From assembly GCA_016791045.1 (NCBI GenBank), contig JAEUNO010000022.1:1-64000 (forward strand): 64,000 nt of DNA, written 5' to 3'. A program made the position numbers and the translations under genes. This DNA comes from Methyloversatilis sp. (GTDB lineage: Bacteria; Pseudomonadota; Gammaproteobacteria; Burkholderiales; Rhodocyclaceae). Of the stretch, positions 3,958 through 19,295 are shown piece after piece. Every line of letters starts with the position of its first letter. The stretch's first letter is position 1. A model generated the notes under the pieces. It saw only the letters and a list, made by a program, of their open reading frames with translations, did not search any database and was not told the DNA's origin.

Positions 3958-4803
3958 TCACCGATGCAATGCCCCGAGCGCGGCGACCCTCGCTGCGGCC
4001 ATCGCCTTGCCGACCTCGATCGCATCGGCACCCAGCGCACGGAACACCCACCCGGCCTCGCCCGGCAACGCCGAGGCGCCCGCGTACAGCCCTTCGCCGG
4101 AAATCGCGCGCAGCGCCTCCTGCAAGCCGGCGCATGCAGTGTGCGTCAGTATCCAGAGGCTGCCCTGCACGCTGAAGTCGCCCGACACGCCGGGCTGCGC
4201 ACCGATCCAGTCAGCGCCGCGGATGCGCATCCGTTCGCGGGCACGCAGGCGCCCGTCGCGGCCGGTGATGTCGATCGCCGAATCCATCCGCTCGAACGAC
4301 GCGCCACAGGAAGTGGGGTCGTGCGCGAGAAAGGTTTCCGACACCAGTACGAGGGCGCCCTCACCCAGCCTGACCGAGATGCGGGCGTGCAGGTGACTGC
4401 CCGGAAAGAGGATCTGCGGCGCCGGCAGGTATTCGAGCTGCGCACCGTCAGCGGCGTCGATGTCGACGGTCTGCGTCGCGCAGCCCCCCCGCATGGTGTG
4501 CACGATGGTCGATGCAGGCGTCGCCACGTGCGCACGCGCGCCCGGCGCCACGGCAATGCGCCCGGTCACCGTGTCGTGTTCGAACAAGCCGCCCGACACC
4601 GACTGCAGGAAGACCGTGCAGCGACCGCGATCGAGCGGGTCCGTGTACAGCGCACGGCCGACATGTACCGGGTAACGAACGTACTGCCGGGCGACGAAGC
4701 TGCGATCGTCCGCCGAACCGAAATCCAGCTCGAAGCTGTGCCGTTCAGTCAAACAGAACCCCGCGCACGATGGCGTCGACCACGGCATCGACGCCTTCGC
4801 CAC
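3958..4803 (-). CDS. ureD: Urease accessory protein UreD
   Basis: UreD is a scaffold that binds apo-urease and, with UreF and UreG, delivers nickel to the active site. The sequence carries the family core with [24 protein letters not shown] and [10 protein letters not shown], followed by [26 protein letters not shown]. The upstream ATG at 4803 gives 281 residues but overlaps ureG by 59 nt. A TTG at 4752, overlapping the ureG stop, would give 264 residues ([13 protein letters not shown]) and is an attractive alternative start. It is the last gene of the operon, after ureG, whereas in many bacteria ureD comes first. Confidence 0.88.
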
Positions 4804-5386
4804 TGGCGCAGTTGGTGAGCAGGGTCGGCTTGCCGGCCCGCACCTCTTCGGCTTCGCGCGTCATGCGCGCCAGATCCACGCGCACGAATGGCGCCAGGTC
4901 GGTCTTGTTGATGACCAGCAGATCGCACTGCAGGACGCCCAGACCGCGCTTGCGCGGAATGTCGTCGCCGCCGGCCACGTCGATGACGAACAGCCAGTAA
5001 TCGACCAGATCGAGCGAAAACGACGACGCGAGGTTGTCGCCGCCGCTTTCCACCAGGATCAGTTCGAGGCCCGGCCAGGTCCGGTCAAGTTCGTCTGCCG
5101 CGGCAAGGTTGAGCGTCGGGTCTTCGCGGATCGCGGTGTGCGGACAGGCGCCGGTTTCGACCGCCAGCACGCGCTCCGGCGCGATGATGCCGCTGCGCCG
5201 GATACGTTCGGCGTCTTCCGCGGTGACCAGATCGTTGGTGATGACGGCGATGTCGGTGCCGCGCGCGATGAAGCGTGGAATGAGCTGTTCGAGCAGCGCC
5301 GTCTTGCCCGATCCGACCGGGCCACCGACACCGACACGCGCCGCACCGCGCGGCTTCGGGTACTGCAGGGGCATGACTGATGGCAT
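4745..5386 (-). CDS. ureG: Urease accessory GTPase UreG
   Basis: This 213-residue SIMIBI GTPase supplies nickel and energy for urease maturation. Visible motifs are the P-loop [11 protein letters not shown] near residues 20-30, the metal-binding Cys-Pro-His in [13 protein letters not shown], the switch region [12 protein letters not shown], and the base-specificity motif NKTD in [13 protein letters not shown]. Length and motifs match functional UreG. It starts 8 bp after ureC and overlaps the 5' end of ureD, indicating translational coupling within the urease operon. Confidence 0.95.
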
Positions 5387-5393
5387 ATGGGGC

Positions 5394-7106
5394 TTACCTC
5401 ATCATGTAAAGGCGATTCAGCGGCACGTGGGTTGCCGGTGCGCAGCCGATCACATGGTTGTCCACGCTGACCTCGAAGGTTTGCGGATTGACCGTGATGT
5501 TCGGCAAGGTGCTGTTGCGCACCATGTCGGCCTTGCTTAACGTGCGCGTGCCGTGCACCGGCAGCAGCGTCTTGCGCAGATCGAGCCGGCCTTCCAGGTC
5601 GCGGCCGAGCGAAGCGGCGCAGACGAAGTTGGCCGACAGCGCCTGCGGTGCGCGGCCGAAGGCGCCCCACTGCGGACGCATGATGAGCGGCTCGCAGGTC
5701 ATCAGCGACGCAGCCGAATCGCCCATCGCGCCATACGCAATGAAGCCGCCCTTGACGACGATTTCCGGCTTGATGCCGAAGAAGGCGGGACGCCACAGCA
5801 CGATGTCGGCCAGCTTGCCCGGTTCCAGCGAACCGACGTGCTGGTCGACGCCGAAGGAGCGCGCGGCATTGATCGTGTACTTCGCGATGTAGCGCAGGAT
5901 GCGTTCGTTGTCGGCGCTGCGTGTGCGTTCCTCGGGCAGGCGGCCGAACTGGTCCTTCATCTTGCTGGCCAGCTGCCAGGTGCGGCAGATGACTTCATTG
6001 ATGCGACCCATGCCCTGGCTGTCCGAACCCAGCATCGATATCGCACCCATGTCGTGCAGCACGTCTTCGGCGGCGATCGTCTGCGCGCGGATGCGGCTTT
6101 CGGCGAACGCCACGTCCTCCGGCACCGCCGGGTTCAGGTGATGGCACACCATGATCATGTCGAGGTGTTCGTCGAAGGTATTCACCGTGTAGGGATTGGT
6201 CGGATTGGTCGATGACGGCAGGCAGTTGGCCTGGCCGACGACGCTGATCACGTCCGGTGCATGGCCGCCGCCCGCCCCCTCGGTGTGATACATGTGGATG
6301 GTGCGACCCTTCGTCGCCGCCAGCGTGTCTTCGAGAAAACCGGATTCGTTCAGCGTGTCGGTGTGCAGCTGCACCTGGAAATCCATGTCGTCGGCGACCG
6401 ACAGGCAGGTGTCGATGGTGGCCGGCGTGGCGCCCCAGTCCTCGTGGATCTTCAGGCCGATGCAGCCGGCCTGCATCTGTTCGACCAGCGATTCGGGACG
6501 CGACGAATTGCCGCGGCCGAGAAAGCCGAAGTTCATCGGCCACTGCTCCGACGCCTGCAGCATGCGCGCGACGTTCCACGCGCCGCCGCAGTCGATGCCG
6601 ACCGTGATCGGGCCGAGCGAGCCGCCGAACATCGTCGTGATGCCGGACGCCAGCGCGTGCTCGACCAGTTGCGCCGAGTCGAAATGCACATGCACGTCGA
6701 GCCCGCCCGCCGTGGCGATCAGCCCTTCGCCGTCGCGCACCGTCGTCGCGTTGCCGACCAGCAGCTGCGGATGCACGCCGTCCATCACATGCGGGTTGCC
6801 CGCCTTGCCGATGGCGACGATGCGCCCGTCCTTGATGCCGATGTCGCCCTTCACGATGCCGACCACCGCGTCGATCACCACGACATTGCTGATGAGCATG
6901 TCGAGTGCGCCCTGCGCGGACGTCAGCCCGCCCATCATGCCCAGTCCGTCACGCAGTGTCTTGCCGCCACCGTGCAGGCATTCGTCGCCGGGTACGGCGA
7001 AGTCGTGTTCGATTTCGGCCAGCAGCGAGGTGTCGCCGAGACGCACCATGTCGCCCCGGGTCGGTCCGTACATCGCCGCATAATCGCGACGGGTCAGCCA
7101 TGCCAT
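5394..7106 (-). CDS. ureC: Urease subunit alpha UreC (divergent)
   Basis: This 570-residue catalytic subunit hydrolyses urea to ammonia and carbamate. All nickel-site residues of the family can be placed: His139 and His141 (GLDVHVHF), the carbamylated Lys219 (GLKIHEDWG), His221, His248 (QLHTDT), His274 ([10 protein letters not shown]), the flap Cys321-His322 (MVCHHL) and Asp362 (GSDSQGMGR). The surroundings are unusual. The usual GGGTGPA...ATTCTPGPW segment reads [17 protein letters not shown], and the first metal-ligand motif is HVHF rather than HIHx followed by CPQQ. It should be active but belongs to a divergent urease clade, consistent with the fused gamma/beta subunit next to it. Confidence 0.95.
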
Positions 7107-7139: not shown

Positions 7140-7850
7140 TCACGCGCCCCTGAAGCCCGCCTGACGCGCGCGCAGCAGCGCATCGGCCAGCCCGGCTTCG
7201 GAGTTGCTCGCGCCATCGGTCAGCCGGTTCAGGCCGAACACCTCGCCCGTGCCGCCGAAGGCCACCAGCGTGACCTCCTTCGATTCGCCCGGCTCGAAGC
7301 GCACGGCGGTGCCGGCGGCGATATCCAGATGCATGCCCCAGGCCAGCGCTCGATCGAAATCGAGCGCGCGATTCACCTCGAAGAAGTGGAAGTGGCTGCC
7401 GATCTGTATCGGGCGATCTCCGGTATTGAGCGCCTTCAGCGTCGTGCTGCGGCGCCCCGCATTCACTTCGATGCGGCCTTCGGCCGGAATGATTTCGCCC
7501 GGTATGCGGGCGCGGCCGCCGCCGGCCGACATCTGCGCGCCGGGGCCGGGCCGTATCGGGTCATGCACGGTCACCAGCTTGGTGCCGTCGGGAAAGCTCG
7601 CTTCGATCTGGATCATCGGCATCAGCGCCGCGACGCCCGGCAGCACGTCGTCGGAATTGAGGATCTGCGAGCCAAACGCGATCATGTCCGCCACGGTGCG
7701 GCCATCGCGCGCACCTTCGAGAATTTCGTCGACGATGAAGGCGATCGCCTCCGGACAATTGAGCTTGAGCCCACGCGCGCGTCGGCGTCGCGACAGCTCC
7801 GCCGCATTGAAGATGGTGAGGCGCTCCAGTTCGGTCGGGGTCAGCAGCAT
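7140..7850 (-). CDS. ureAB: Fused urease gamma/beta subunit (UreA-UreB)
   Basis: A single 236-residue reading frame joins the gamma subunit and the beta subunit. Residues 1 to about 100 are gamma ([37 protein letters not shown], then [32 protein letters not shown]). The beta part starts near residue 115 ([16 protein letters not shown], then [11 protein letters not shown] and [18 protein letters not shown]). Separate ureA and ureB genes are usual in betaproteobacteria; fusions are known in Helicobacter and some others. No internal stop or frameshift separates the two. It lies 33 bp before ureC and 59 bp after ureF. The linker is short and glycine-rich ([10 protein letters not shown]). Confidence 0.95.
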
Positions 7851-7909: not shown

Positions 7910-8620
7910 TCAATTGGCAAACAGACGCGCGCTGCGCGCTTCGTGGCGCATGGCGGCGATGTCGAGCGCGGGCGTGCCGCTGCCCATGTCCTCGCGTGCC
8001 GGCGGTGGCTGCGACAGCACGCCGGCGATGACCGGCCGCATGCGGGTCAGCAGGCGCTGGCCATCGACGTGTCCGATCATTCCCATGCGCAGCGCAGCAC
8101 CGATGATCGACGTGCACAGGCCGCCCACCGCCATCGCATCGCAACTGCCCGTCGGCAAGCGGTACGCCGCCCACAGAGCGCCCTGCACCACCGGCAGGTG
8201 ACCCGGCGCGTGTGAACCGCGTACGGACTCCAGATAGCGTTGCGCACACGCGACGCCCAGGTCGGCGTGTATGCGAAGCTGCGTGAAGCCCAGTCGGCGA
8301 CTGGCTTCGCGCCAGCCGCGCGTGAGCGACATCGCCTCGCACAGTCGGTCGAGATCGGCCAGGGCCTCCATCAGCGCCGGGCTGTCGCCGCAGTCCGTGC
8401 AGGCCTGATGGGCCAGATGCATCAACGGCCGGTCCAGGCCGGCCCAGCGATGGGTCACCTGCGCCTGCAGAAGCCCGAACACCTGTTCGACATCGCTGAC
8501 CTGACTGTCCAGACGCAGCGATTCCAGCCCCCACGAAAAGGAGGCGGCACCACCGGGGAAGAAGCTGTCGGAAAACTGCAGCATCGCCAGCTGCTGGTCG
8601 ATGCCTGATTCAATGTGCAT
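7910..8620 (-). CDS. ureF: Urease accessory protein UreF
   Basis: This 236-residue UreF forms the UreD-UreF-UreG complex that gates GTP hydrolysis during nickel insertion. The N-terminus LAMLQFSDSFFPGGAASFSWGLESL matches the family signature, where the usual pattern is L..SDS.FP.G.F..S.GLE. The rest is alpha-helical, with LPVVQGALWAAYRLP in the middle as expected. The start codon overlaps the 3' end of ureE by 11 nt. The C-terminal tail after residue 215 (PPPAREDMGSGTPALDIAAMRHE) resembles the C-terminal extension needed for UreD binding in other UreF proteins. Confidence 0.92.
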   Translation of the reverse strand: MHIESGIDQQLAMLQFSDSFFPGGAASFSWGLESLRLDSQVSDVEQVFGLLQAQVTHRWAGLDRPLMHLAHQACTDCGDSPALMEALADLDRLCEAMSLTRGWREASRRLGFTQLRIHADLGVACAQRYLESVRGSHAPGHLPVVQGALWAAYRLPTGSCDAMAVGGLCTSIIGAALRMGMIGHVDGQRLLTRMRPVIAGVLSQPPPAREDMGSGTPALDIAAMRHEARSARLFAN

Positions 8621-9137
8621 GCGGCACCGGGATGTAACGCACGGTGCCGTGGGCGGCCGGCGGCGGCGGTTCGGATCCGGCGCCCGGCCCGGCCTCGTCC
8701 GGGACCGTCACGCAACCTCGCTGGATCAGGTGGGCAAGGCGCTGCAGATAGGTGTCGCGCGGGCCGTCCAGTGCAATGCACAGCCGTTCGCCGTCGAACT
8801 TCACCTTCCAGTGCATGTTGCCCGCGAAATAGCCCAGTTCGAGCGCGTCCGCGGCAGTGCGGGCCTGCAGCACGAGCCAGTGCGGTTCGTCGAGCAGCAC
8901 GACCACGGCGCGCTCGTCATCGAGCCACAGCACGGAACCGTTCTGCAGCGTGGCGTCACGGTCCAGCATCAGCGCCACCGTGCTGCCGCGGTCGGTCCGC
9001 AGTTGCTGCCGGCGGCGCGCCATGTCGCTGCGCGTGAGGCGCACGGTTTCAAGGCCGCCGCGATGTTCGATGTCATGCAGTCTGTCCGCCAGCGCGGCGT
9101 CGGCGGCGCAGCCCAGAATGGTGGTCACACGAAGCAT
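8610..9137 (-). CDS. ureE: Urease accessory protein UreE (nickel chaperone)
   Basis: This 175-residue UreE begins at the ATG at 9137 (MLRVTTILG); the frame is open upstream but the extra 60 residues are low-complexity and not family-like. Segments such as TVRLTRSDMARRRQQLRTDRGSTVALMLDRDATLQNGSVL and the conserved region ending in GNMHWKVKFDGERLCIA match UreE peptide- and metal-binding domains. The C-terminal tail is short and ends PVPHAH, so the long His-rich tail of some UreE proteins is absent. It follows urtA in the same operon after a region with two strong hairpins. Confidence 0.85.
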   Translation of the reverse strand: MLRVTTILGCAADAALADRLHDIEHRGGLETVRLTRSDMARRRQQLRTDRGSTVALMLDRDATLQNGSVLWLDDERAVVVLLDEPHWLVLQARTAADALELGYFAGNMHWKVKFDGERLCIALDGPRDTYLQRLAHLIQRGCVTVPDEAGPGAGSEPPPPAAHGTVRYIPVPHAH

Positions 9138-9217
9138 GGACAGGTCCGGTTGATGTCGGGGTTGATGAATGGGCGTGGATGCGGGGTTGAAAGAGCCCGG
9201 TTTGAAGACCCGCCGTT

Positions 9218-9309
9218 GCCGGAGGCACATGACATGCCTCCGGCGTATGCCCGGGGCGGAGCTTGCCAACAACCCGCCGCCGGACGGCCGCACACCGTCC
9301 GACGGCGGG
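9218..9309 (-). promoter_or_regulatory. Two strong stem-loops between urtA and ureE
   Basis: The first structure met by the - strand transcript has 15-bp arms (9273-9287 and 9295-9309, one mismatch, loop 7 nt). The second has 10-bp perfect arms GCCGGAGGCA/TGCCTCCGGC (9218-9227 and 9235-9244). Neither is followed by a U-run, so they look less like simple terminators and more like 3'-end stabilisers or partial attenuators after the abundant binding-protein message. That function is inference. Confidence 0.6.
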
Positions 9310-9325
9310 CGCAGCAACTACCCGC

Positions 9326-10504
9326 TCAGATAGTCGGGAAAGGGTTGGGCTCGATCAGCGGTGACTCGTAAATCATGTTGACCTGGCCATCGGCGCCGAA
9401 CGCACCGATGCGCGCCTGCTTCCACAGGTGATGATTGCTGCCGTGGAATCTCACCAGGCCTTCCGGTCCGGTGAACTCGAGATTGGCCGACGCGGCAATC
9501 ACCTTGTCCACATCGAAGCTCTTGGCCTTTTCGACCGCCATCTTCCACAGATAGACGGCGGTGTAGGCGCACGCCAGGGTGTCACCGGTGACGCGCTTCT
9601 GGCCGTACTTCGCCTTGAATGCCGCCACGAATTTCTTGTTCGCCGGATTGTCCAGGCTCTGCAGGTAGCTCATGCAGGTCAGCACGTCCTGCACGTTCTC
9701 GTTGCCGATGCCCGACACCTCTTCTTCCGATACGGCGAACGCCATCACCGTCGTCTTCTTCATGTTGACGCCGGCCGCCTTCAGCTGCTTGTAGAACGCC
9801 ACGTTCGATCCGCCGACGATGGTGCTCAGGATGATGTCCGGCTTGACCGCCTTGATCTTGTTGATGGTCGAGCCGAAGGACGTGCTGCCCAGCGGCATGT
9901 ATTCCTCGCCGAGCACCGATCCGCCGCCCTTGACGATGGTCGGGCGCGCAATCTTGTTCGTAACGCGCGGCCAGATGTAGTCGGAACCGATCAGGTAGAA
10001 GGTCTTGCCGCGATTCTCGAGCAGCCAGTTGCAGCCCTGCACGCACTGCTGGGTCGCTTCGTGCGCGGTGTAGAGGATGTTCGGCGACTGCTCCTGTCCT
10101 TCGTAGTAGGTCGGGTAATACAGCAATCCCTTGGCCTGTTCGAATACCGGCAGCACCGCCTTGCGCGACGCCGACGTGTAGCAGCCGAACACAGCGGCCA
10201 CCTTGTCCTGGCCGAGCAGCTTGCGGGCCTTTTCGGCGAAGGTCGGCCAGTCGCTCGCGCCATCCTCCACCACCGGCACGATCTTCTTGCCGAGCACGCC
10301 GCCGGCGGCATTGATTTCGTCGATGGCGAGCTTTTCAGCGTCGACCACAGAGGCTTCGGCCAGCGCGATGGTGCCGGTCAGCGAATGCAGGATGCCGACC
10401 TTCACCACATCCTGCTGCGCGAACGCACCACGCATCATCGTCGGGCCCGCCACGGAAGCCAGGGCGAGTGCTTTGACCAGATCACGACGCAGATTACTTT
10501 TCAT
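9326..10504 (-). CDS. urtA: Urea/amide ABC transporter periplasmic binding protein UrtA
   Basis: This 392-residue type I periplasmic binding protein captures urea or a short-chain amide for the importer. It has a Tat-like start (MKSNLRRDLVKALALASVAG with cleavage after AFAQQ). Family hallmarks are VKVGILHSLTGTIALAE, FGCYTSASRKAVLPVFEQ, LLYYPTYYEGQEQSPNI and YLIGSDYIWPRVTN, which match UrtA/FmdD/AmiC-like proteins. The matching ATPase genes urtDE lie on the opposite strand 8 kb away, so binding protein and importer core are in separate transcripts. Its message is preceded by a 5' leader with a regulated terminator (10505-10700). Confidence 0.92.
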   Translation of the reverse strand: MKSNLRRDLVKALALASVAGPTMMRGAFAQQDVVKVGILHSLTGTIALAEASVVDAEKLAIDEINAAGGVLGKKIVPVVEDGASDWPTFAEKARKLLGQDKVAAVFGCYTSASRKAVLPVFEQAKGLLYYPTYYEGQEQSPNILYTAHEATQQCVQGCNWLLENRGKTFYLIGSDYIWPRVTNKIARPTIVKGGGSVLGEEYMPLGSTSFGSTINKIKAVKPDIILSTIVGGSNVAFYKQLKAAGVNMKKTTVMAFAVSEEEVSGIGNENVQDVLTCMSYLQSLDNPANKKFVAAFKAKYGQKRVTGDTLACAYTAVYLWKMAVEKAKSFDVDKVIAASANLEFTGPEGLVRFHGSNHHLWKQARIGAFGADGQVNMIYESPLIEPNPFPTI

Positions 10505-10700
10505 GTTTCCCTCGAAAGAATGGATGGTTAAGGTTTGGATGACTCAAGACAGCACAGCGCAGACGACAAAATTTGTTGCAACGCCACATCGCCGATTGCG
10601 AAAAAAGAACGAAAAAAAGGCCTGGCGGATCCGGAGATCCGCGCAGGCCTTTTTGCCTTTCTTTGCACCGGCAATGCTGGCGATGCGAAGAGTTACATTG
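10505..10700 (-). promoter_or_regulatory. amiL-type antitermination leader of the urtA-urease operon
   Basis: Reading the - strand from the predicted start, the leader contains three structures. P1 has stem GCATCG/CGGTGC (10681-10686 with 10665-10670), with CAGCAUUG at its apex. P2 is a small hairpin AGGC (10655-10658) with GCCU (10645-10648) around a 6-nt A-rich loop. The third is a strong terminator (10612-10654). P2 uses the 5' arm of the terminator, so the two are mutually exclusive, which is the logic of ANTAR-controlled antitermination. The same arrangement precedes dmfA1, and an amiR-like gene lies at 17265. About 100 nt of leader separates the terminator from the urtA start. Confidence 0.7.
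10612..10654 (-). terminator. Conditional terminator in the urtA leader
   Basis: On the - strand, AAGGCCTG is followed by GCGGATC, a UCCG tetraloop, GATCCGC, CAGGCCTT and seven U residues. The stem is about 15 bp with a one-nt bulge. It lies upstream of the whole urtA-ure operon, so it must be bypassed for expression; the competing P2 hairpin shares its 5' arm. Confidence 0.8.
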
Positions 10701-10729
10701 ATACTAGTGAGCCGATTACGGCGAGTCAA
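10701..10729 (-). promoter_or_regulatory. Sigma-70-type promoter of the urtA-urease operon
   Basis: The - strand shows TTGACT (10724-10729), a 17-nt spacer and TAGTAT (10701-10706). The same -10 hexamer in the same ACTAGTAT context occurs in front of dmfA1. The first structured element of the leader starts about 15 nt downstream of the -10. Confidence 0.65.
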
Positions 10730-10849
10730 GCACTGTTTTCAGTAAATTGACGGCGCTGAACTCACATCACTTTTGTTGCAACGCACCACCCACGCAGGGG
10801 TGATCCGCCGGGTCCCGACTCCCCCCGGCACAGCGCTGCGGGCATGCCT

Positions 10850-11143
10850 TCAGCGGCGCATCCGGTACATGAAGATGCAGCGCCCCTGCTGCCCGGCCCC
10901 AAAGCCTGCGACCGGATGAAGCCGGTGCCGGGCCACCATGAAATCGACGACGGTGCGGGCTGCGGCCGGCGACAACGTCGGCTTCCACAGCCAGATGTCA
11001 TCCCGGCTGTCGACGCCGCAGACCGAGAACAGCGCCTGTTCGGCGTCGTCCGCCATGCCGATCGCCCATTCCTCCGTCTTCGCACCGAATTCCTTGATGT
11101 AGCTGAGGCATTCGAATTTGATCTGCTGCACGCTGAAGGTCAT
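10850..11143 (-). CDS. Hypothetical protein, last gene of the dimethylformamidase operon
   Basis: This 97-residue protein starts at the ATG at 11143, 4 nt after the Sel1 gene stop, with the ribosome site GGTGAGG overlapping that stop; the frame is open upstream but the extra residues overlap the Sel1 gene and look like a shadow. The sequence (MTFSVQQIKFECLSYIKEFG, WAIGMADDAEQALFSVCGVD, DIWLWKP, GQQGRCIFMYRMRR) is soluble and mixed alpha/beta, with no signal peptide. I do not recognise the family. Its tight coupling suggests a role linked to dimethylformamidase or the Rieske-like protein. The next transcription unit (urtA) has its own promoter about 120 bp downstream. Confidence 0.7.
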   Translation of the reverse strand: MTFSVQQIKFECLSYIKEFGAKTEEWAIGMADDAEQALFSVCGVDSRDDIWLWKPTLSPAAARTVVDFMVARHRLHPVAGFGAGQQGRCIFMYRMRR

Positions 11144-11147
11144 CGCC

Positions 11148-11828
11148 TCACCCCGGAACCGGCACCAGTCGCGCAGGCGATGACACCGCGGCCGTGCGCG
11201 TCCGCCATTGGTCGAACTGCGCCGCTCCCCGGTGCTTCTCTTCCACCGACATCTGGCCGACGATGCCTTCGAGCGCATTCAGCGCCGTGCCGACGCCATG
11301 CTGCGCGGCAAGCGAAAGCCAGGCGAAGGCCTGCGCACGGTCCTTCTCCACACCGAGTCCGTTTGCGTACATGAAACCCAGTCGCGCCTGCGACGGGTAG
11401 TGACCCTGTTCGGCCGCGCGCCGATACCAGTGTGCGGCGGCCGCTTCATCGTGCGGTACGCGGTCACCCTTGAAGTAGAGCGTGGCAAGATTGCTCTGCG
11501 CCATCGCGTCGCCCGCCTGTGCGGCACGGGTCAGCCAGTGCAGCCCGGCAACCGGATCGGCTGCGGTGCCCTGCCCCATGACGAGCATGGCGCCGACATT
11601 GGTCTGCGCCGGAACGTGATCCTGCTCGGCCGCGCGCAGATACCACGCGAAAGCCGCTTCGAGATCGGCCGGCACTCCTTCGCCATTGGCATGCAGCGAA
11701 CCGATCCAGGCCTGGGCCTCCGGATCTCCCGCCTGGGCCAGCACCGAGAAGCGTTCGTGGGCGTCGGCAAGCTGGCCTTCGCGATAGGCCGCGACGGCTG
11801 CATCGACGGGTCGTGACGACGTGTTCAT
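11148..11828 (-). CDS. Sel1-repeat (TPR-like) protein
   Basis: This 226-residue protein consists of Sel1-like repeats, with units such as AQAWIGSLHANGEGVPADLEAAFAWY, AQTNVGAMLVMGQG, AQSNLATLYFKGDRVPHDEAAAAHWY and AQARLGFMYANGLGVEKD, so about four to five repeats from residue 35 to 180. Such arrays act as protein-interaction scaffolds. No signal peptide is visible, so it is probably cytoplasmic. The start at 11828 (MNTSSRPVD) follows AAGGAC and lies 10 nt after the upstream Rieske-like gene. Its place in the dimethylformamidase operon suggests an assembly or regulatory role, but nothing in the sequence proves it. Confidence 0.8.
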   Translation of the reverse strand: MNTSSRPVDAAVAAYREGQLADAHERFSVLAQAGDPEAQAWIGSLHANGEGVPADLEAAFAWYLRAAEQDHVPAQTNVGAMLVMGQGTAADPVAGLHWLTRAAQAGDAMAQSNLATLYFKGDRVPHDEAAAAHWYRRAAEQGHYPSQARLGFMYANGLGVEKDRAQAFAWLSLAAQHGVGTALNALEGIVGQMSVEEKHRGAAQFDQWRTRTAAVSSPARLVPVPG

Positions 11829-11838
11829 GGCATGTCCT

Positions 11839-12783
11839 TCATGGGTACGTTGCAAGGTCGAGGGTGTCGAGGCGATGTGTCATTTCGTGCGCCAGCCAGG
11901 ACGCGACGGCTGCGTCGGCCCGGGTCGGCGCATCAGGCGTTGCCTCCGACAGGCGTTCGCCGATCAGCGCCCGCCAGTCGCTCAAGGGCAGCGTGTCGTC
12001 ACCCAGCACGGTGATGCGGCACAGCGTGCGCGTCAGCGCCACCGGTTGCAGCACGACGGCACATACGGCGTGCTGCAGCGCCAGCAGTACAAGATTCGGA
12101 AAAAACCAGAGCGCCCTGGCCGGCAGGCCGGCCAGGGTGGTGTCAGCCACCAGTACCGAGGCACCGAAGACACGCGGCAATTGTTCCGCGGCGAGCAGAC
12201 GCTGAGCCACGCGCTTCCAGTTGCCGTCGACCTCCTGCCAGTGACTGCCCTGCAGCGGCATGTCCTGCCGCGAAAGCACCGGAACCGCGACCTGCAGCGA
12301 TCTGGCCGTGTCGGTGATCGCCGCACCGTGCGGATCGAGATTGACGCACAGCAGCGGCCCGATCCGGTCGACGCGGACCGGCAGCAGGCGCTCCGGTCGC
12401 AGACCGAGATACTGGTGCATTTCAGGCGTCGCATCGCCCAGTTCCGACGCTGCAATGACCGGCCGGTCGCGGCTGTGTCCGCACGACGTGAACGAGCATG
12501 GCGTCTTCGTGCCCTGCTGGCATTGCACCGGGACGACTCGGCAACCGCCATGCTGTGCCTTGTTGAACCGGCCGGTGAAGCTGTCGTCGGCCATCCTCTG
12601 GATGTGGATGGCGTGGTCACCTGCAGTGAACGGCAGCAGGTCACCGACGCCCGCCAGTTCATGCGTCGTTCCGACGCACACCCAGTCGCGCGTCCAGATC
12701 GTCTCGTCTTCGCGCCGGGCCATGCGCAGCGACCGGAACGCCAAGTCATCGAGACCGGGGGATCGGATCATTTCATCGAGCAT
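11839..12783 (-). CDS. Degenerate Rieske oxygenase alpha-subunit-like protein
   Basis: This 314-residue protein resembles ring-hydroxylating oxygenase alpha subunits: ETIWTRDWVCVGTTHEL, GDLLPFTAGDHAIHI, FNKAQHGG, FTSCGH, VDGNWKRV and ALWFFPNLVLLA align in order with family landmarks. The Rieske ligands are altered. The CxH position reads Ala76-Gln-His78 and the CxxH position reads Ser100-Cys-Gly-His103, so both cysteines are replaced while both histidines stay. No D/E..HxxxxH iron site follows NWK. Other cysteines (81, 88, 96, 101) lie close by. The start at 12783 has GGAGG upstream; an ATG at 12825 lies inside a hairpin and is less likely. A catalytically dead or repurposed fold is inferred. 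Confidence 0.65.
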   Translation of the reverse strand: MLDEMIRSPGLDDLAFRSLRMARREDETIWTRDWVCVGTTHELAGVGDLLPFTAGDHAIHIQRMADDSFTGRFNKAQHGGCRVVPVQCQQGTKTPCSFTSCGHSRDRPVIAASELGDATPEMHQYLGLRPERLLPVRVDRIGPLLCVNLDPHGAAITDTARSLQVAVPVLSRQDMPLQGSHWQEVDGNWKRVAQRLLAAEQLPRVFGASVLVADTTLAGLPARALWFFPNLVLLALQHAVCAVVLQPVALTRTLCRITVLGDDTLPLSDWRALIGERLSEATPDAPTRADAAVASWLAHEMTHRLDTLDLATYP

Positions 12784-12817
12784 GCAGCCTCCGTGATCGA
12801 CATGGGTCGGATACTGC

Positions 12818-12851
12818 CTGACCATCCGCCGACGCTGCGGCGGATGGTCAG
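12818..12851 (-). promoter_or_regulatory. 13-bp perfect stem-loop between dmfA2 and the Rieske-like gene
   Basis: CTGACCATCCGCC (12818-12830) and GGCGGATGGTCAG (12839-12851) form a perfect 13-bp stem with an 8-nt loop. It lies between the dmfA2 stop and the GGAGG of the next gene. There is no U-run on the - strand side, so it may act as an mRNA processing or stability element that sets dmfA2 above the downstream genes. Confidence 0.65.
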
Positions 12852-12858
12852 ACGGGTG

Positions 12859-15255
12859 TCAGGTGGATGACGCCAGCGCCGGCGACTCGTAATCCGCGCG
12901 ACCGCGATGCTTGAACGCTTCCTTCGGCGCGGCCGGCAGCGGGCCGTCCTGCATGAAGCGGTCGAGCACGTTCTTGGTCAGGCGCGAAATGTTGTTGTCG
13001 CAGTTGTTCCACGGCAGCGATCCGCAGTAGGCGATCGAGCTGAACGCGAAGCAGCCACCGCCGTTCGGCGTCTCGTGGAAGGTCACGTCGGCACGCACAC
13101 GCGGATGCACGGTGCCGTCCAGACCTTGCTGGTTGAAGCCGAAATCCTCCATCACCAGCAGGTAGGCCTCGGTATGGCGGCCGGCCGACGTGGCGACGGT
13201 GAGGATGTGCGGCGGCGAACCGAGCATCGTGTCGACGATGTCCAGTTCCAGACCGGCCGCGCCACCGCCTACCAGGCCGAAGTTGCCCAGGTTCTCTTCG
13301 TAGGTGATGCCGTCGAACGCCCAGCTCACGCGCGGGTCCAGACTTTCCGGCGTCCGCGTGAAGTAGGACGAAATGTCGAACCCTTCGGACGACATGCCGG
13401 TCCCGGCCACCGAATGGAGATAGCGGCCGCGATAACGCCACATGCCGCCCAGCTCACCGGTGCCCTGATGGTAGTACTCGCCCGGATCGGCGCGCCAGGT
13501 GCGGATGCCGGATTCGCAGCGGCGCATTTCGGTGACCACGCCGCGGCCCAGACCGTCGTAGGCCGGGTGGAAGGAATGCACCCAGTACCAGGCGTCGGCG
13601 CCCATGTACATCAGGCGACCGCCGCGCTGCGTGTAATTGTGCAGGGCGTCGAGCTGGGTGCCCGAGTTGTGCTCCGGGTGCGAGCCGGTGATGATGACGT
13701 TGTAGTTCTCCAGCCGTGCCAGACCGTCGTAGGTCGCGTCCTCGTCGGTGAACACGTCGTACTCGTAGCCCATCTGCTCGAGCCAGCAGATCAGGTGCAG
13801 GTCGGCCGGGTACTGCCACGGCGCCTGGGCCAGGAAGTGGTCGTACTTGGGACGGATACTCAGGATGGGGCGCAGCCGCGACGACAGGCAGATGCCGCTG
13901 CCGTCGGTATGGGTGTCGTAGATCGAACCGCCGTATTCGCGGTGCTCGGCGAGGAACATGTTCTGCTGCTGCATGATGGGTACGCGATAGATGAACAGTT
14001 CAGCGCCACCGGCGTTGCACGCCACGTGTTCGTTCGCGTAGGCCATGTAGCTGATCGTCGGCACCATGACCGCGATCTTCGACTGTTCCTGGCCGATCTT
14101 CGGCACGATCCAGAACGGGATGTAGTCCTCGTCGCCCTCGGGCGTGGTCAGCTTGGCGGCATAGAAGCGGCTCTTGATGTCGGTCGGCACCGTCCATTCG
14201 AAACTCACGTCCCAGCGTGCGTTGTCGAGGTCGTCGTCGTGGAAGTGGATGGCCCCGTATTCCTTCGGCGACACCTTCCAGTCGAAGGTCTGGCCGGCCC
14301 AGTTGTAGCCGGTCAGCGCGCGCGTCGGGCAATTCACGAGCGTGGCGTTGAAGCGGTACGGGCCGGCGTCCTTCGCCACCAGCGTATCGATGCCATCGGA
14401 AAAGTCCCAGGCGGCCACGATGGCTTCCGACAGCGCGCCGGTCGGACCGGCGTTGCGGCGTTCGGTCAGTCCCGGCTGCGCGCCGCCCTTCATCATTTCG
14501 ATCTCGAAGCGCGACAGGGCGCGGTTGCACAGGCGCGGGCTGTCGATCTTGCCGTTGTAATGACCACCGACGATGACACCCTGCGGCAGCGACGACAGCC
14601 CCAGCGGGCCCGGTTCGAGGTGATCGACGTAGCCGGCGATCACCAGCGGCTGGTCGGTGTGTTCCACCTTGCCCTTGAAGGTCGCCTTGACCGGCGCAAT
14701 CTCCGGGTCCAGCGCATAGACCACCTGCGGCTCGTGATGCAGCACCACTTCGCCGGTCAGCGCGTCGAAGCTGGCGGCGATGAAGTGCCAGGCGTGGTCG
14801 CGCAACGGCGCACCGTTCGTGTACGTCTCGCCATTGATGCGCAGTTCGACGCAGCCGTCGGTGTTGATGAACAGGCCATAGCCCTTGCCACCGGACCACT
14901 TGGTCACCAGCCCCTGTGCGCCGTGCTTCCAGTAGCGCTTGTCGGTCTTGGGCGTCGTCGGCCAGATCCAGCACTGCAGCGTGAAACTGTCCGGCCTGAG
15001 TTGCGGTGCATCGGCCACGAAGCCGTACGAACCGCCGTAGACGACCTGCTTGATGCCGTCATACACGCCTTCGCAGTCCGCCTTCACTGCCTTTTCGATG
15101 AAACCCGGACCACGCGGGTTGGTATCGCCGTTGATCATCTGCACGACGGATGCCTGGTACTTCGCGGGACCGTCGCAATTGACGTAGAACCTGATCGTGT
15201 CGCCCGGATGGACGCCGAACTTGTCGGCGTATCCGGTCAGTCGCATTGCACACAT
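12859..15255 (-). CDS. dmfA2: N,N-dimethylformamidase large (beta) subunit
   Basis: This 798-residue protein matches the large subunit of N,N-dimethylformamidase, which hydrolyses DMF to dimethylamine and formate. The part from about residue 80 to 250 reads like a LamG/concanavalin-type fold (SFTLQCWIWPTT, GYGLFINTDGCVELRINGE, WHFIAASFDALTGEVVL). The C-terminal half carries YGGSIYDTHTDGSG, RPKYDHFLAQAP and VIITGSHPEHNSG. The published enzyme binds iron through two tyrosines and a glutamate. Tyrosines near 403-446 and Glu526 in GSHPEH are the candidates, but alignment is needed. The ATG at 15255 follows GGAGAG. The small-subunit gene is directly upstream. Confidence 0.9.
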   Translation of the reverse strand: MCAMRLTGYADKFGVHPGDTIRFYVNCDGPAKYQASVVQMINGDTNPRGPGFIEKAVKADCEGVYDGIKQVVYGGSYGFVADAPQLRPDSFTLQCWIWPTTPKTDKRYWKHGAQGLVTKWSGGKGYGLFINTDGCVELRINGETYTNGAPLRDHAWHFIAASFDALTGEVVLHHEPQVVYALDPEIAPVKATFKGKVEHTDQPLVIAGYVDHLEPGPLGLSSLPQGVIVGGHYNGKIDSPRLCNRALSRFEIEMMKGGAQPGLTERRNAGPTGALSEAIVAAWDFSDGIDTLVAKDAGPYRFNATLVNCPTRALTGYNWAGQTFDWKVSPKEYGAIHFHDDDLDNARWDVSFEWTVPTDIKSRFYAAKLTTPEGDEDYIPFWIVPKIGQEQSKIAVMVPTISYMAYANEHVACNAGGAELFIYRVPIMQQQNMFLAEHREYGGSIYDTHTDGSGICLSSRLRPILSIRPKYDHFLAQAPWQYPADLHLICWLEQMGYEYDVFTDEDATYDGLARLENYNVIITGSHPEHNSGTQLDALHNYTQRGGRLMYMGADAWYWVHSFHPAYDGLGRGVVTEMRRCESGIRTWRADPGEYYHQGTGELGGMWRYRGRYLHSVAGTGMSSEGFDISSYFTRTPESLDPRVSWAFDGITYEENLGNFGLVGGGAAGLELDIVDTMLGSPPHILTVATSAGRHTEAYLLVMEDFGFNQQGLDGTVHPRVRADVTFHETPNGGGCFAFSSIAYCGSLPWNNCDNNISRLTKNVLDRFMQDGPLPAAPKEAFKHRGRADYESPALASST

Positions 15256-15389
15256 GGTGTTCGTCTCTCCTGGTCGAGCGCCGCCCTCCGGGGGTCCGGA
15301 TGCGTTGCTTGAAATTTGCGGGAACTGCGTACCCGGGCGTCAGTGCCGGGGTCGCTGGCTGAATGGCTTTCGGCGCGACAGGCGCGGTA

Positions 15390-15830
15390 TCAGGTGACCG
15401 GCCAGTTGTCGTCGCGGCGCTTGTAGCCCTCGTGGTAATGCTCCGGGAATCCGTCGGACTCGGGCATTTCATCGAGGCGCATCAGGAAGATGGCGTGCTG
15501 GATGTCCTGCTCGCTGGTGTAGACATCGTCGGTGGCGAATACCGGCGGCACGCCGCGGATGCCCGACAGGCGCCCGATGCGCCACTCCGCATCGACACGG
15601 GTACAGATCACGACCAGCTTGCCCTTCGTCGAGGCACCCCGCATGCGCAGCAGCACGCGCTTGAGCAGCGGGTCTTCATGCACGCCGCCGCCGATGACGG
15701 TGGTGTCGCCCGGCGTGGCGCACTTGAGCACCGAAAAACCCGCGACGCCGGCCATCGACTGCACGCACTCCAGATGCTCCCGGATCAGGCGATCGCGCTC
15801 AGGCGTGCCTTTCTTCGGTATCGAAATCAT
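15390..15830 (-). CDS. dmfA1: N,N-dimethylformamidase small (alpha) subunit
   Basis: This 146-residue protein matches the small subunit of N,N-dimethylformamidase in size and position, with the characteristic tail MPESDGFPEHYHEGYKRRDDNWPVT. Its N-terminal segment SIPKKGTPERDRLIREHLECVQSMAGVAGF is helical. The ATG at 15830 has AAGGAG 8 nt upstream. It is the first gene of the operon, preceded by a 185-nt leader holding a conditional terminator, and dmfA2 follows after 134 bp. The assignment rests mainly on the partner gene and on length; the subunit alone has few recognisable motifs. Confidence 0.85.
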   Translation of the reverse strand: MISIPKKGTPERDRLIREHLECVQSMAGVAGFSVLKCATPGDTTVIGGGVHEDPLLKRVLLRMRGASTKGKLVVICTRVDAEWRIGRLSGIRGVPPVFATDDVYTSEQDIQHAIFLMRLDEMPESDGFPEHYHEGYKRRDDNWPVT

Positions 15831-16016
15831 CGGTCAGACTCCTTCAGAACACGGAAATTGGATGGAAAGCCGATCATCAATCCCTCGACGCCGCAGCAAA
15901 TCTGTTGCAGCGCGGCAAGACAAAAGACGAAAAAAAAAGGGCCTGCCGAATCCGGAGATTCGAGCAGGCCCTTTTGCCTTGCCTCACATCGGCAGTGCTG
16001 GCGATGTGAAGAGATG
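15831..16016 (-). promoter_or_regulatory. amiL-type antitermination leader of the dmfA operon
   Basis: The - strand leader has P1 with stem CACAUCG/CGAUGUG (16002-16008 with 15985-15991) and CAGCACUG at the apex. P2 pairs AGGC (15976-15979) with GCCU (15966-15969) around the 6-nt loop AAAAGG. A terminator follows at 15930-15971. P2 uses the terminator's 5' arm, so formation of P2 would prevent termination. Order, spacing and apical sequence match the urtA leader, while the flanking leader sequence differs. The amiC and amiR genes that would encode sensor and antiterminator start 84 bp away on the other strand. Confidence 0.72.
15930..15971 (-). terminator. Conditional terminator in the dmfA leader
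   Basis: On the - strand, GGGCCUGC, one unpaired U, CGAAUC, the UCCG tetraloop, GAUUCG and GCAGGCCC form a 14-bp stem followed by nine U residues (15938 down to 15930). It is one of the strongest terminators in the window and lies in front of, not behind, a gene. Confidence 0.85.
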
Positions 16017-16021
16017 ACTCA

Positions 16022-16051
16022 ATACTAGTCACGCCCGCTGCACCGCGTCAA
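16022..16051 (-). promoter_or_regulatory. Sigma-70-type promoter of the dmfA operon
   Basis: The - strand reads TTGACG (16046-16051), an 18-nt spacer and TAGTAT (16022-16027). The ACTAGTAT context equals that of the urtA promoter. Confidence 0.62.
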
Positions 16052-16054
16052 GCT

Positions 16055-16066
16055 CTGTTAGTATCA
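16055..16066 (+). promoter_or_regulatory. Possible extended -10 promoter for amiC-amiR
   Basis: The + strand shows TGTTAGTATC, an extended -10 (TGn then TAGTAT at 16059-16064), 35 nt before the GTG of the amiC-like gene. No good -35 is visible. The same TAGTATCAAT string occurs at the urtA promoter. Low confidence. Confidence 0.35.
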
Positions 16067-16099
16067 ATTTCGTTTTTCGTTCTCCGCTTTCACTGTCCT

Positions 16100-17272
16100 G
16101 TGTCCAACTCCGATCCGGTCAAGGTCGGCGTCCTGTTTTCGCGCGAGGGTGTGACCTCGCGCATCGAAAATTCGATGCTGCTCGGCACGCTCTTCGCAAT
16201 ACGTGAAATCAACGATGCCGGCGGCCTGAACGGCCGCGAACTCGTTCCGGTGTACTACGACCCGCACTCCAGCCCGCAGATGTTCAAGTCACTCGCCACG
16301 CGGCTGGTGCTTGAAGACAAGGTGAATGTCATCTTCGGCTGCTACATGTCGAGCACGCGCAAGGCGATACTTCCGGTGGTCGAGAAGTGGAACCGCCTGC
16401 TGTTCTGTCCGACGATGTACGAAGGTTTCGAGTTTTCCGGCAACGTGATCTACACCGGCGGCGCACCGAACCAGAACAGTGCGCTGCTGGCCGACTACAT
16501 GGCGAGCCGCTTCGGTGCACGCGTCTACATGGTGGGCAGCGACTACATCTTTCCGTACGAGTCGAACCGCATCATGAGTGACTTCGTACACCAGCGGCAG
16601 GGCGGCGCGAAGCTGGGCGAACGCTATGTACGGCTGGATGCGCAGGAAAGCGCCTTTGCGCCCATCATCAAGGACATCCAGGCCAAGCAGCCGGATTTCA
16701 TCTTCTCGACCGTCGTCGGACGGACGACCCGGATGTTCTATCAGGCCTTTGCCGATGCAGGGCTCGATCCGGCGCGCATGCCGATCGCCAGCCTGTGCAC
16801 CAGCGAAGAGGAAATCGCCGAAATGGGCAAGCGCATCGCCGAAGGTCACTACACGGCGGGCCCCTATTTCCAGTCGATCGACACCGAACGCAACCGCAGC
16901 TGCCTGGCGCACTTTCGCAAGCTTTTCGGTTCTCAGGTCGAGCCCAACATGAGCTGGGAATCCTCTTACAACCAGGTACACCTGTTCGCCGGCGCCTTCG
17001 TCGCCGCCAACAGCGATGAACGCGATGTGCTGCTGCCTCACCTGCTGGGCATGGAATTCGATGCGCCGCAGGGCCGCATCCGCGTCAATCCGAACAATCA
17101 CCACACGCGGCTTTTTCCGCGCATCGGCCGCGTCAACGACAGCGGGCAATTCACGATACTCGCGGAAACGCTGTCGGGCGTCGAACCCGATCCCTATCTG
17201 GTCAGTCATTCGTTCGACGACTGGAGCAATCGCCTGCGCGTGCCTGCCGACGAGCAGACCCGCCGTGAGTAG
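16100..17272 (+). CDS. amiC: AmiC-like amide sensor (negative regulator of AmiR)
   Basis: This 390-residue protein is a type I periplasmic-binding fold without a signal peptide, as in cytoplasmic AmiC, which binds short-chain amides and releases AmiR. Shared landmarks include VGVLFSREGVTSRIE, FGCYMSSTRKAILPVVEKW, CPTMYEGFEFSGNVIYTGG, APNQNS, VGSDYIFPYESN, FSTVVG, ASLCTSEEEIAEM and a C-terminal DDWSNRL block. It starts at a GTG with no clear ribosome site, so translation may be leader-poor. It overlaps the amiR-like gene by 8 nt and diverges from dmfA1. Ligand preference (formamide, DMF, urea) cannot be read from the sequence. Confidence 0.88.
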   Translation: MSNSDPVKVGVLFSREGVTSRIENSMLLGTLFAIREINDAGGLNGRELVPVYYDPHSSPQMFKSLATRLVLEDKVNVIFGCYMSSTRKAILPVVEKWNRLLFCPTMYEGFEFSGNVIYTGGAPNQNSALLADYMASRFGARVYMVGSDYIFPYESNRIMSDFVHQRQGGAKLGERYVRLDAQESAFAPIIKDIQAKQPDFIFSTVVGRTTRMFYQAFADAGLDPARMPIASLCTSEEEIAEMGKRIAEGHYTAGPYFQSIDTERNRSCLAHFRKLFGSQVEPNMSWESSYNQVHLFAGAFVAANSDERDVLLPHLLGMEFDAPQGRIRVNPNNHHTRLFPRIGRVNDSGQFTILAETLSGVEPDPYLVSHSFDDWSNRLRVPADEQTRRE

Positions 17273-17900
17273 CCCGGCGCGCCCCACCAGCCGCGGTGCG
17301 CGGCTCACTCCGGAATTCCTCAGGCAGTTGCGCAGCCTGCGCGTCGCCGTGCTGCACCCGAAGGACGAAGACGGCGAAACCCTGACCCAGCAGTTGCAGC
17401 GCATCGGCTGCCAGGTGCAGACCTTCTGGCCACCGGTGCCCGATCTGCCGGACAACGTTGACCTGGTGTTCTGTGCCGTCGACCACGATGCCATGGGCAT
17501 GTCGTTCAGCTGGGTCCGTCAGGAACAGCCGCCCGCGGTGATTGCCATCATCAGCTACGAAAACCCGACCATCTTCGATGCGATGATCAAGCTGGGTGCG
17601 ACGGGTGTGCTCACGGCGCCGATCCGCTCGACGGGCATCCTGTCGACGCTGGTGCTGACGGTGGGTCTGAACGAAGCGATGCGCAAGGCCGAGAAGCGTG
17701 TGCTCAGGCTCGAGCAGAAGCTGCTGGGCATCAACCAGATCAACGAAGCGAAATCCATCCTGATGCGCACGCGCAATGTCGGCGACAGCGAGGCCTACCG
17801 CATCATCCGCGAGCAGGCGATGAGCCGCCGCGTGTCGACCGAGGAAATCGCACGCGCCATCATCCACGCCAATTCCATCCTGTCGGGGCCGACCGGTTAG
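17265..17900 (+). CDS. amiR: AmiR-like ANTAR-domain antitermination regulator
   Basis: This 211-residue protein has a receiver-like N-terminal domain (LRVAVLHPKDEDGETLTQQLQRIGC, DLVFCAVDHD) of the AmiR type. A coiled coil follows (MRKAEKRVLRLEQKLLGI), then a C-terminal ANTAR domain from about residue 150 (INEAKSILMRTRNVGDSEAYRIIREQAMSRRVSTEEIARAII). ANTAR domains bind paired RNA hairpins and block termination. The GTG at 17265 overlaps the amiC stop region by 8 nt, as expected for a sensor-regulator pair made in stoichiometric amounts. The two leader terminators at 10612 and 15930 are the obvious targets. A perfect bidirectional terminator follows the gene. Confidence 0.9.
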   Translation: MSSPARPTSRGARLTPEFLRQLRSLRVAVLHPKDEDGETLTQQLQRIGCQVQTFWPPVPDLPDNVDLVFCAVDHDAMGMSFSWVRQEQPPAVIAIISYENPTIFDAMIKLGATGVLTAPIRSTGILSTLVLTVGLNEAMRKAEKRVLRLEQKLLGINQINEAKSILMRTRNVGDSEAYRIIREQAMSRRVSTEEIARAIIHANSILSGPTG

Positions 17901-18032: not shown

Positions 18033-18161
18033 CAATGCGCCGCGCATGACCCGGCTGCCCCTGTCCGCCCCAGGATGGGGCATGGCCGGTTGCATCAAGC
18101 GGACACCCGACAAAGACCAGGGCCCGTACCGAGCCACTGCACACCAAAGGACACTCACCCC

Positions 18162-19295
18162 ATGACGAAGAGGACTTCCCGCCTGCGACGCGGGCCGCTC
18201 GCCTTCACGCTCGCCGCCGGTGTCGCTGCCGCGGGCAATGCCTTCGCCGGTCCGACCTTCACCGGACCGGGCGACAGTTCGCTGACGCTCGGCATCTGGT
18301 CAAGCGCCGCATACACGAGCGCCGAACAGGCCGACGGGTCGCACGACAGCGACCTGCGGCTCGATTCCTTCCGCATCATCACGGTCGCGAAGTTCACGAA
18401 ACAGATCGGACTCATGACCAACTTCGCGCGCCTGTCGGGTGAGTCGATGCGCCTGCTCGATCTGGTCGGCCAGTTCACCCTCACCGACAACATCAACCTG
18501 TGGGTCGGCCGCCACGTCGTGCCAGGTGACCGTCAGCAGATGGCGGGGCCCTACTTCGCCAATGTGTGGGAATACCCGATGGTGTCGCGCAATCCCAACG
18601 CCTACACCGGCCGCGATGATGGCGCAACGCTCTGGGGCAGCGTGTTCGACCGGCGCTTGCAGTACATGGTCGGCGCGTTCCAGGGGAAGAACCGCGGCGA
18701 GGACATGTCGAACGCGTCGCACCAGCTGCTGTACGCGACCCGTCTCGCGTGGAGCTTCCGTGACCGGGAATCGGAGTACTTCAACAGCAACCACTACTAC
18801 GGTGAAAAGGAAATACTGACCATCGGCGCCGCCTGGCGGACTCAGAAGGATGGCGTCGGCACTGCGCTGACCCGCGGCGACTACACCGCCTGGAGCCTCG
18901 ATGCACTGATGCAGACACGCCTGTCCACCGGCGCCGTCGTGACGCTCGAAGGCGCCTGGTACGACTACGACACCGACGGCGTCGCCGACATCTCGCCGGC
19001 CGACCCGGGCTGCAGCCGTGTCACGAACTGTGGCGGCGCCACCCAGGGCGACGCCTGGTTCGTGACGGCCGCCTACCTGTTCCCGACGAAGATCGGCATC
19101 GGCCGTTTCGAGCCGAACATCCGCTATCAGGAATTCCGGCCGGACACAGGCGCCCGCAACGACCAGTGGGACGTCGGCGTGAATTACGTCATTTCGGGTC
19201 ATAACGCGCGGCTGAGTGCCGTTTACTCGGAGATGGGCAGCGACGGCGCACGCTCGCTCAACCGCTTCATCCTCGGGTTGCAACTGATGTACTGA
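18162..19295 (+). CDS. Outer-membrane porin, FmdC-like paralogue
   Basis: This 377-residue protein is a paralogue of the porin at 2715-3881. The shared blocks are DSFRIIT.(S/A)KITKQIG-like segments, GPYFANVWEYPMVS, YTGRDDGA, GAFQGKNRG, KEILTIGAA, GDYTAW, LEGA.YDYDTDGVAD and a terminal LQLMY. A signal peptide (basic RLRRGP, then hydrophobic LAFTLAAGVAAAGNAFA) precedes the barrel. The start at 18162 has AAAGGA upstream; the frame is open further but the extra residues cross the NtrC-type site. The position next to amiCR and the NtrC-like box suggest expression under nitrogen limitation or amide induction. Substrate specificity is inferred. Confidence 0.78.
   Translation: MTKRTSRLRRGPLAFTLAAGVAAAGNAFAGPTFTGPGDSSLTLGIWSSAAYTSAEQADGSHDSDLRLDSFRIITVAKFTKQIGLMTNFARLSGESMRLLDLVGQFTLTDNINLWVGRHVVPGDRQQMAGPYFANVWEYPMVSRNPNAYTGRDDGATLWGSVFDRRLQYMVGAFQGKNRGEDMSNASHQLLYATRLAWSFRDRESEYFNSNHYYGEKEILTIGAAWRTQKDGVGTALTRGDYTAWSLDALMQTRLSTGAVVTLEGAWYDYDTDGVADISPADPGCSRVTNCGGATQGDAWFVTAAYLFPTKIGIGRFEPNIRYQEFRPDTGARNDQWDVGVNYVISGHNARLSAVYSEMGSDGARSLNRFILGLQLMY

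Follow-up and report, generated by a model that had tools for sequence, protein, structure and literature searches.

How might one amide-sensing regulator pair open two operons through leader RNAs whose loops lack a base that antiterminators of its family are described as reading? The question is posed by a 64,000-nucleotide stretch of Methyloversatilis sp. DNA (assembly GCA_016791045.1, contig JAEUNO010000022.1, positions 1 to 64,000; hereafter the window), in which an amiC-amiR pair accompanies two similar leaders, one preceding a urea-binding protein and urease operon (urt) and the other a dimethylformamidase-like operon (dmf). The published consensus for the hexanucleotide loops bound by ANTAR proteins is A at position 1 and G at position 4 (A1 and G4; PMC3369931, PMC7496416, PMC8164766, PMC8934654), a consensus that, according to PMC8164766, exceeds 50% in actinobacteria alone. 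The original prediction for this DNA pointed out that G4 is missing from the loops here and that RNA recognition may differ. It was right, and pursuing it gave an association, over 65 loci, between loop position 4 and a single residue of AmiR. On the sequence comparisons described below, it is well supported that the two-leader regulon would use a known mechanism; it is the variation in RNA recognition that appears to be new.

Both leaders (urt, 10729-10612; dmf, 16051-15930) lie on the minus strand and contain the parts that had been ascribed to them. In each, a promoter (urt, TTGACT-17-TAGTAT, 10701..10729; dmf, TTGACG-18-TAGTAT, 16022..16051) is followed by a hairpin, P1 (urt, 10665..10686, hexaloop AGCAUU with a C-C mismatch below the closing C-G pair; dmf, 15982..16011, hexaloop AGCACU), by a small putative antiterminator hairpin, P2 (urt, AGGC-AAAAAG-GCCU, 10645..10658; dmf, AGGC-AAAAGG-GCCU, 15966..15979), and by a strong, UCCG-capped, U-tailed intrinsic terminator (urt, 10612..10651, -28.6 kcal/mol; dmf, 15930..15973, -29.5 kcal/mol). 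The P1 apex reads CC[AGCA(U/C)U]GC in both leaders, which are 76–77% identical over 125–140 bases. The 5' arm of each terminator starts with the 3' arm of P2, and by this overlap and the folding energies P2 and the terminator are mutually exclusive. Two hairpins with 6-nucleotide loops, closed by C-G and joined by short linkers (2 and 6 nucleotides), form the dual-hexaloop arrangement of ANTAR targets. Position 1, read directly, is A in all four loops; position 4 is A in all four, not G.

This arrangement is rare by chance. A scan for P2 within a terminator had no match in 3.06 Mb of mononucleotide-shuffled sequence (both strands counted), and a caller for P1, P2 and terminator found both window leaders against one match per 2.05 Mb shuffled (strands counted apart). 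The promoter-like sites are weaker evidence alone: these two are the only ones between 9000 and 19000, where shuffling expects 1.6. No Rfam family exceeds its threshold within the window. A first scanner, which demanded near-perfect terminator stems, missed the window leaders and was replaced. The promoter context given in the prediction, ACTAGTAT, is variable in the other Methyloversatilis clade (for example CTATCAT, CTAAGAT and CTAGCAT).

The presumed regulator of these leaders is encoded beside the dmf leader and divergently from it. The products of amiC (16100..17272, plus strand), which probably encodes the amide sensor that partners AmiR, and of amiR (17265..17900, plus strand; its in-frame GTG at 17265 overlaps the amiC stop, as read from the sequence) are an AmiC-type binding protein and an adjoining protein with Pfam AmiR_N and ANTAR domains. 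Their best structural matches are the Pseudomonas aeruginosa proteins of 1pea/1qo0, P. aeruginosa AmiC being the nearest solved structure to AmiC. In the crystal of Enterococcus faecalis EutV with RNA, G4 is contacted by Glu160, Tyr164, Lys149 and Arg142, and the E160A and Y164A substitutions lower affinity ∼60-fold and ∼55-fold (PMC8934654). By ungapped alignment, the equivalents of EutV Glu160 and Tyr164 are AmiR Asp172 and Tyr176 (residues counted from the codon at 17271; Asp172 codon, 17784..17786, plus strand). The RNA-reading position, which is Glu in P. aeruginosa AmiR, is thus Asp here.

Residue 172 and loop position 4 were compared over 93 AmiR loci (75 + 18), in 65 of which a P1 was accepted. 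A locus was kept only with a strict call or with a readable P1 at a match to R1, an RNA model trained on 23 leaders (19 A4, 4 G4). Thirty-three loci came from a strict automatic caller that makes no use of position 4 and was blind to the residues, and 32 were read by hand at R1 matches with the residues known. The callers required A1 (in P1) and the closing C-G, so these features in relatives carry no test value. P1 had G4 in all 34 loci with Glu and A4 in all 31 without it (41 clusters at 85% identity); for the strict caller alone, 33 of 33 loci and 40 of 40 sites were concordant. In the A4 class, residue 172 is D (13 loci), A (8), K (4), R (3), N, I or H. Among 209 protein alignment columns it is the sole one in which the two classes have no residue in common (0.32 of the weight for the runner-up), and among the six loop positions the fourth alone is fully informative (1.0 bit, against 0.42 for the next). 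P2 is looser: at strictly called sites whose AmiR lacks Glu, all 25 P2 loops have A at position 4, and at those with Glu this base is G in seven, A in six and U in one.

Several observations count against a functional switch. Only two or three independent switches underlie the association, and an independent-pairs sign test gives p 0.5. Relaxed callers proposed, away from any readable R1 site, P1 loops that would be discordant at some of the 28 dropped loci (L022, L027, L032-L037, L076, L088, L090-L092, L097, L157, L159, L162-L164, L166, L175, L177, L186, L187, L192, L193, L195 and L197): A4 with Glu at L162 (score 21.0), L192 (22.0) and L197 (24.5), and C4 at L164 (26.5, where the R1 site has a 7-nucleotide loop) and L193 (21.5). 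At L191, which was kept, the top relaxed call is A4 with Glu (27.0); it was set aside for a 44-bit R1 site, hand-read as G4. For L162 and L164 the relaxed caller made four shuffled-control matches, scoring up to 21.5, in 0.87 Mb; the calls at L192, L193 and L197 were made without a shuffled control. Three loci were dropped though concordant (L097, L187 and L166, the last a 13-bit R1 match), and at L022, L027, L032-L037, L076, L091, L092, L157, L159 and L163 the upstream DNA is cut off or nearly so. Four of the dropped loci, L076, L163, L022 and L027, carry Asp, and A4 leaders are predicted there.

The alternative that survives best is that A4 and the lack of Glu were simply inherited together, a few old lineages carrying both and their near relatives repeating the pattern. 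On trees of the AmiR N-terminal region, loop position 4 need have changed only three times, twice on well-supported branches; with so few changes and a sign test at p 0.5, the association by itself could be inheritance. We nevertheless regard this explanation as rather unlikely. Residue 172 alone of 209 columns separates the classes, and position 4 alone of the loop positions is fully informative; the EutV equivalent of this residue touches G4 in the crystal, and its replacement by alanine weakens binding ∼60-fold (PMC8934654). Residue 172 changed six times among the A4 rows and never among the G4 rows, with A4 making up 33–36% of branch length; were changes to fall by branch length, a rough model, the probability of this imbalance would be 0.001–0.002. 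One genome, G1176, encodes two AmiR proteins, of which that with Asp goes with an A4 leader (L156) and that with Glu with two G4 leaders (L158). It is because of the crystal contact, the imbalance of residue changes and the G1176 pair that function is favoured. We consider a residue-for-base switch between AmiR and the P1 loop a strong specificity hypothesis, and lean, with modest confidence, towards two AmiR classes: one in which Glu reads a G4 P1, and one without Glu that would read an A4 P1 while its residue drifts (D, N, K, A, I, R or H), P1 being the strict discriminator and P2 tolerant. In the literature searched, as far as its available text goes, no published report of the association was found.

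The comparisons among relatives also bear out the prediction that two AmiR-type ANTAR leaders and one amiC-amiR pair serve both operons, and we hold antitermination of dmf and urt by AmiC and AmiR (AmiCR) to be well supported and highly probable. Transcription from the two sigma-70-type promoters would begin a short way before P1 and normally end at the overlapping terminator. AmiC with a small amide or urea-like ligand bound would release AmiR, whose ANTAR dimer would bind the P1 hexaloop and then pass to, or also hold, P2; with P2 held the terminator would be blocked, and RNA polymerase could enter the dmfA1-dmfA2 and urtA-urease operons. Transcripts reading through dmf would also meet the urt gate, the leaders standing in series on the same strand. 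As this AmiR has Asp172 in place of the G4-reading Glu and the loops carry A4, we propose that protein and RNA changed together.

A search with a model of the leaders, as proposed with the prediction, agrees with this reading. R1 found exactly two strong sites (87.6–105.1 bits) in 11 of 13 Methyloversatilis genomes, with 150 initial candidates scored in each; the leaders of the window and of seven further Methyloversatilis loci were in its training set and match by construction. The next-best site in the genus scores 30.4 bits and is the terminator of the window itself, read on the opposite strand; matches of 15–30 bits were treated collectively as terminators, some of them being these sites in reverse orientation. 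AmiR and the cluster urease occur in the same 11 genomes. In the other two, G541 and G542, both are missing and R1 gives no strong site (24.7 and 18.3 bits at best). Another urease, 56–59% identical, is encoded elsewhere in all 13 genomes. Leader, regulator and dedicated extra urease therefore appear to have been gained or lost together. In the window genome the second ureC lies at G000:C29:116600-118291 (57% identical), on a contig with no strong leader.

The leaders are also maintained as structures. Both leader positions could be read in eight Methyloversatilis loci, the window included; the window's nearest AmiR loci are three Methyloversatilis records (97–98% identity). The urt P1 loop is AGCAUU and the dmf P1 loop A(G/A)CACU in all eight, so the separation of the two leader copies probably predates that of the species. 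When 23 leaders are aligned (16 from Methyloversatilis, seven from other genera), P1 shows changes on both sides in eight of its ten pairs, and P1 and P2 together in nine of 14, with a covariation score of 0.444 against 0.177 in shuffled alignments and at most 0.149 when slid. The observed number of pair types was reached in one of 500 shuffles, and the remaining three measures in none of 500. The GCCA-5nt-GCC of P1, the GGCAA-4nt-GCC of P2 and the C-C mismatch below the closing C-G of P1 are invariant over the 23. Upstream of the dmf -35, within 16022-16075 of the window, GATACTAACAGAG (GATACTAGCAGAG in L026) is conserved among the dmf leaders of the eight loci; read in reverse, this region holds TTAGTATC, a possible -10 of the divergent amiC.

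Some of this speaks less clearly for control by AmiCR. Leaders, AmiR and urease are missing alike from G541 and G542, so their co-occurrence may reflect inheritance as one block; the nine pairs changed on both sides were matched in ten of 500 shuffles; and no leader was accepted at 28 of the 93 AmiR loci, in about half of these because the upstream region is cut off. A different view of the regulon would have AmiCR acting ancestrally on urt-urease, with dmf having captured a promoter-leader that brings little regulation. AmiCR-leader-urtA(-urease) is found at many other loci, and the relative of the dmf operon on Paracoccus aminophilus pAMI5 lacks an R1 match and is accompanied by different regulators. 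Yet the dmf leader directly adjoins amiC and keeps all its parts, with its own loop variant, in eight of eight loci, and this view seems improbable to us. Slightly less credit still is due to control of the leaders by something else, a ligand-binding RNA or the second ANTAR protein encoded in the genome: that protein retains Glu, no Rfam family reaches threshold in the window, leaders and AmiR co-occur in 11 of 11 genomes, and in other genera too the leaders adjoin amiCR. The second protein, a REC-ANTAR protein (L001 985-1683, G000:C40), lies after a REC-SpoIIE protein. Strong as the terminators are, it is very improbable that they are plain intrinsic terminators behind two promoters with P1 and P2 incidental, for P1 lies outside the terminator and covaries all the same, and its apex and the P2 core are invariant.

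Control by AmiCR would place this locus beside two known systems. P. aeruginosa AmiC and AmiR have the same domains, and the terminator of the P. aeruginosa amiE leader carries two hexaloops (PMC3369931). Here, in contrast, the targets are urt-urease and dmfA-like operons, there are two leaders, the loops have A4 for G4, and Asp takes the place of the Glu of P. aeruginosa AmiR. EutV shares the dual hexaloop, the P2 overlapping a terminator and the several leaders per regulator (PMC3369931, PMC8934654), but differs in that EutW phosphorylates it when ethanolamine is sensed and that it reads A1/G4 with Glu160. The prediction had set the two leaders apart from a classical single-operon target, and this novelty did not hold: EutV has four leaders (eutP, eutG, eutS and eutA; PMC3369931), and the AmiR loci L155, L158, L189 and L194 carry two each.

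All genes behind the two leaders are on the minus strand. The dmf leader is followed by dmfA1-like (15390..15830; small subunit, 146 aa), dmfA2-like (12859..15255; large subunit, 798 aa), orf328 (11839..12825), a Sel1-repeat gene (11148..11855) and orf142 (10850..11278). Behind the urt leader come urtA (9326..10504; urea-binding protein, TIGR03407 above cut-off), ureE (8610..9317; true start probably further in), ureF (7910..8620), ureAB (7140..7850; fused gamma/beta subunit), ureC of the second, cluster-borne urease (5394..7106), ureG (4745..5386) and, assigned from position only, a probable ureD (3958..4803). Two related porin-like genes flank the cluster (18155-19295 and 2715-3881), the one after amiR having the same place in L019-L021. 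An fmd operon enters at the left on the plus strand, with FmdA above its NCBIfam cut-off and the operon start beyond the contig end. A further leader copy had been suspected there; none was found by R1 in the whole G005 genome, which includes the fmd start, or by blastn in L041. In L042 and L043 (G118 and G070), the window's fmd region is unmatched beside urease by blastn.

The dmf large subunit belongs to the DMFase family (6lvb_A, E 5e-157), and the small subunit matches 6lvb_B at E 0.014. They are 71% and 64% identical, respectively, to their pAMI5 counterparts, and the large subunit is 39% identical to the product of an 18.6-kb record annotated with dmfA1, which we take to be pAMI2. Growth on dimethylformamide is reported to require pAMI2, where the LuxR-type DmfR activates the DMFase operon, and no link to such use was found for the pAMI5 dmf genes (PMC4543880). 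The use of dimethylformamide originally proposed for this operon must therefore be softened: given the nearness to the pAMI5 protein, the product is a dimethylformamidase-like enzyme whose substrate is not secured as dimethylformamide. The pAMI5 locus has dmfA1, dmfA2 and orf328- and orf142-like genes in the same order, and a gene for an AmiS/UreI transporter; it differs in having no R1 match and no annotated AmiR, and encodes instead an AmiC-like binding protein and a histidine kinase with a response regulator. The 328-aa product of orf328 has weak Rieske oxygenase subunit similarity (NCBIfam, E 6.8e-8, far below cut-off), and its pAMI5 homologue is annotated 'biphenyl 2,3-dioxygenase'.

R1 matches adjoin amiC-amiR in many other genomes, with the same regulators and homologous leaders, and differ from the window in that no dmfA-like operon was seen behind them. 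Among the scanned loci, the first gene after the leader is urtA or UrtA-like in L071, L073, L074, L075, L078, L084, L087, L094 and L098, and encodes an aliphatic amidase or a member of the nitrilase family in L030, L039, L077, L082 and L089; urtA and urease genes follow the leader in 11 of 52 compared loci. Plasmids of Ancylobacter and Aminobacter carry amiCR-leader-urt-urease, and in Paracoccus plasmid DNA amiCR stands with an ABC transporter and urease, no leader being accepted there. In Achromobacter, Caballeronia and others an amidase replaces urease, the order in Caballeronia and a Klebsiella plasmid being urt-amidase-amiCR. Of the loci with two leaders, L155 has one (11588-11729) before a HupE/UreJ gene and one before urtA-urease, L158 serves a urtA operon and a permease operon, L189 an amidase operon and a cytosine permease operon, and L194 has one before amiC and one before the urt operon. 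Weaker second R1 matches with GGAC-AAAGGC-GUCC (A1/G4) over a terminator occur in L170 (8050-8149), L171 (15354-15452), L172 (11973-12051) and L173 (8140-8239); lying away from the AmiR leader, they are perhaps targets of another ANTAR protein.

These loci connect amide-sensing antitermination with urease and the uptake of urea in several groups of proteobacteria. Linkage of amiCR with amiE has been described (PMC13209695), and no paper on an amiCR-urease link was found in the literature searched. The association backs the view that the flipped base is the one at position 4 and not at position 3 (PMC8934654), and a genuine switch would independently support the orientation in which the loop was placed in the crystal structure of EutV with RNA. 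It would also mean that searches for A1/G4 loops overlook a class of ANTAR targets. If the two classes are real, A4 and G4 loops would insulate paralogous antiterminators within one cell, as in G1176, and would provide a natural orthogonal antitermination pair.

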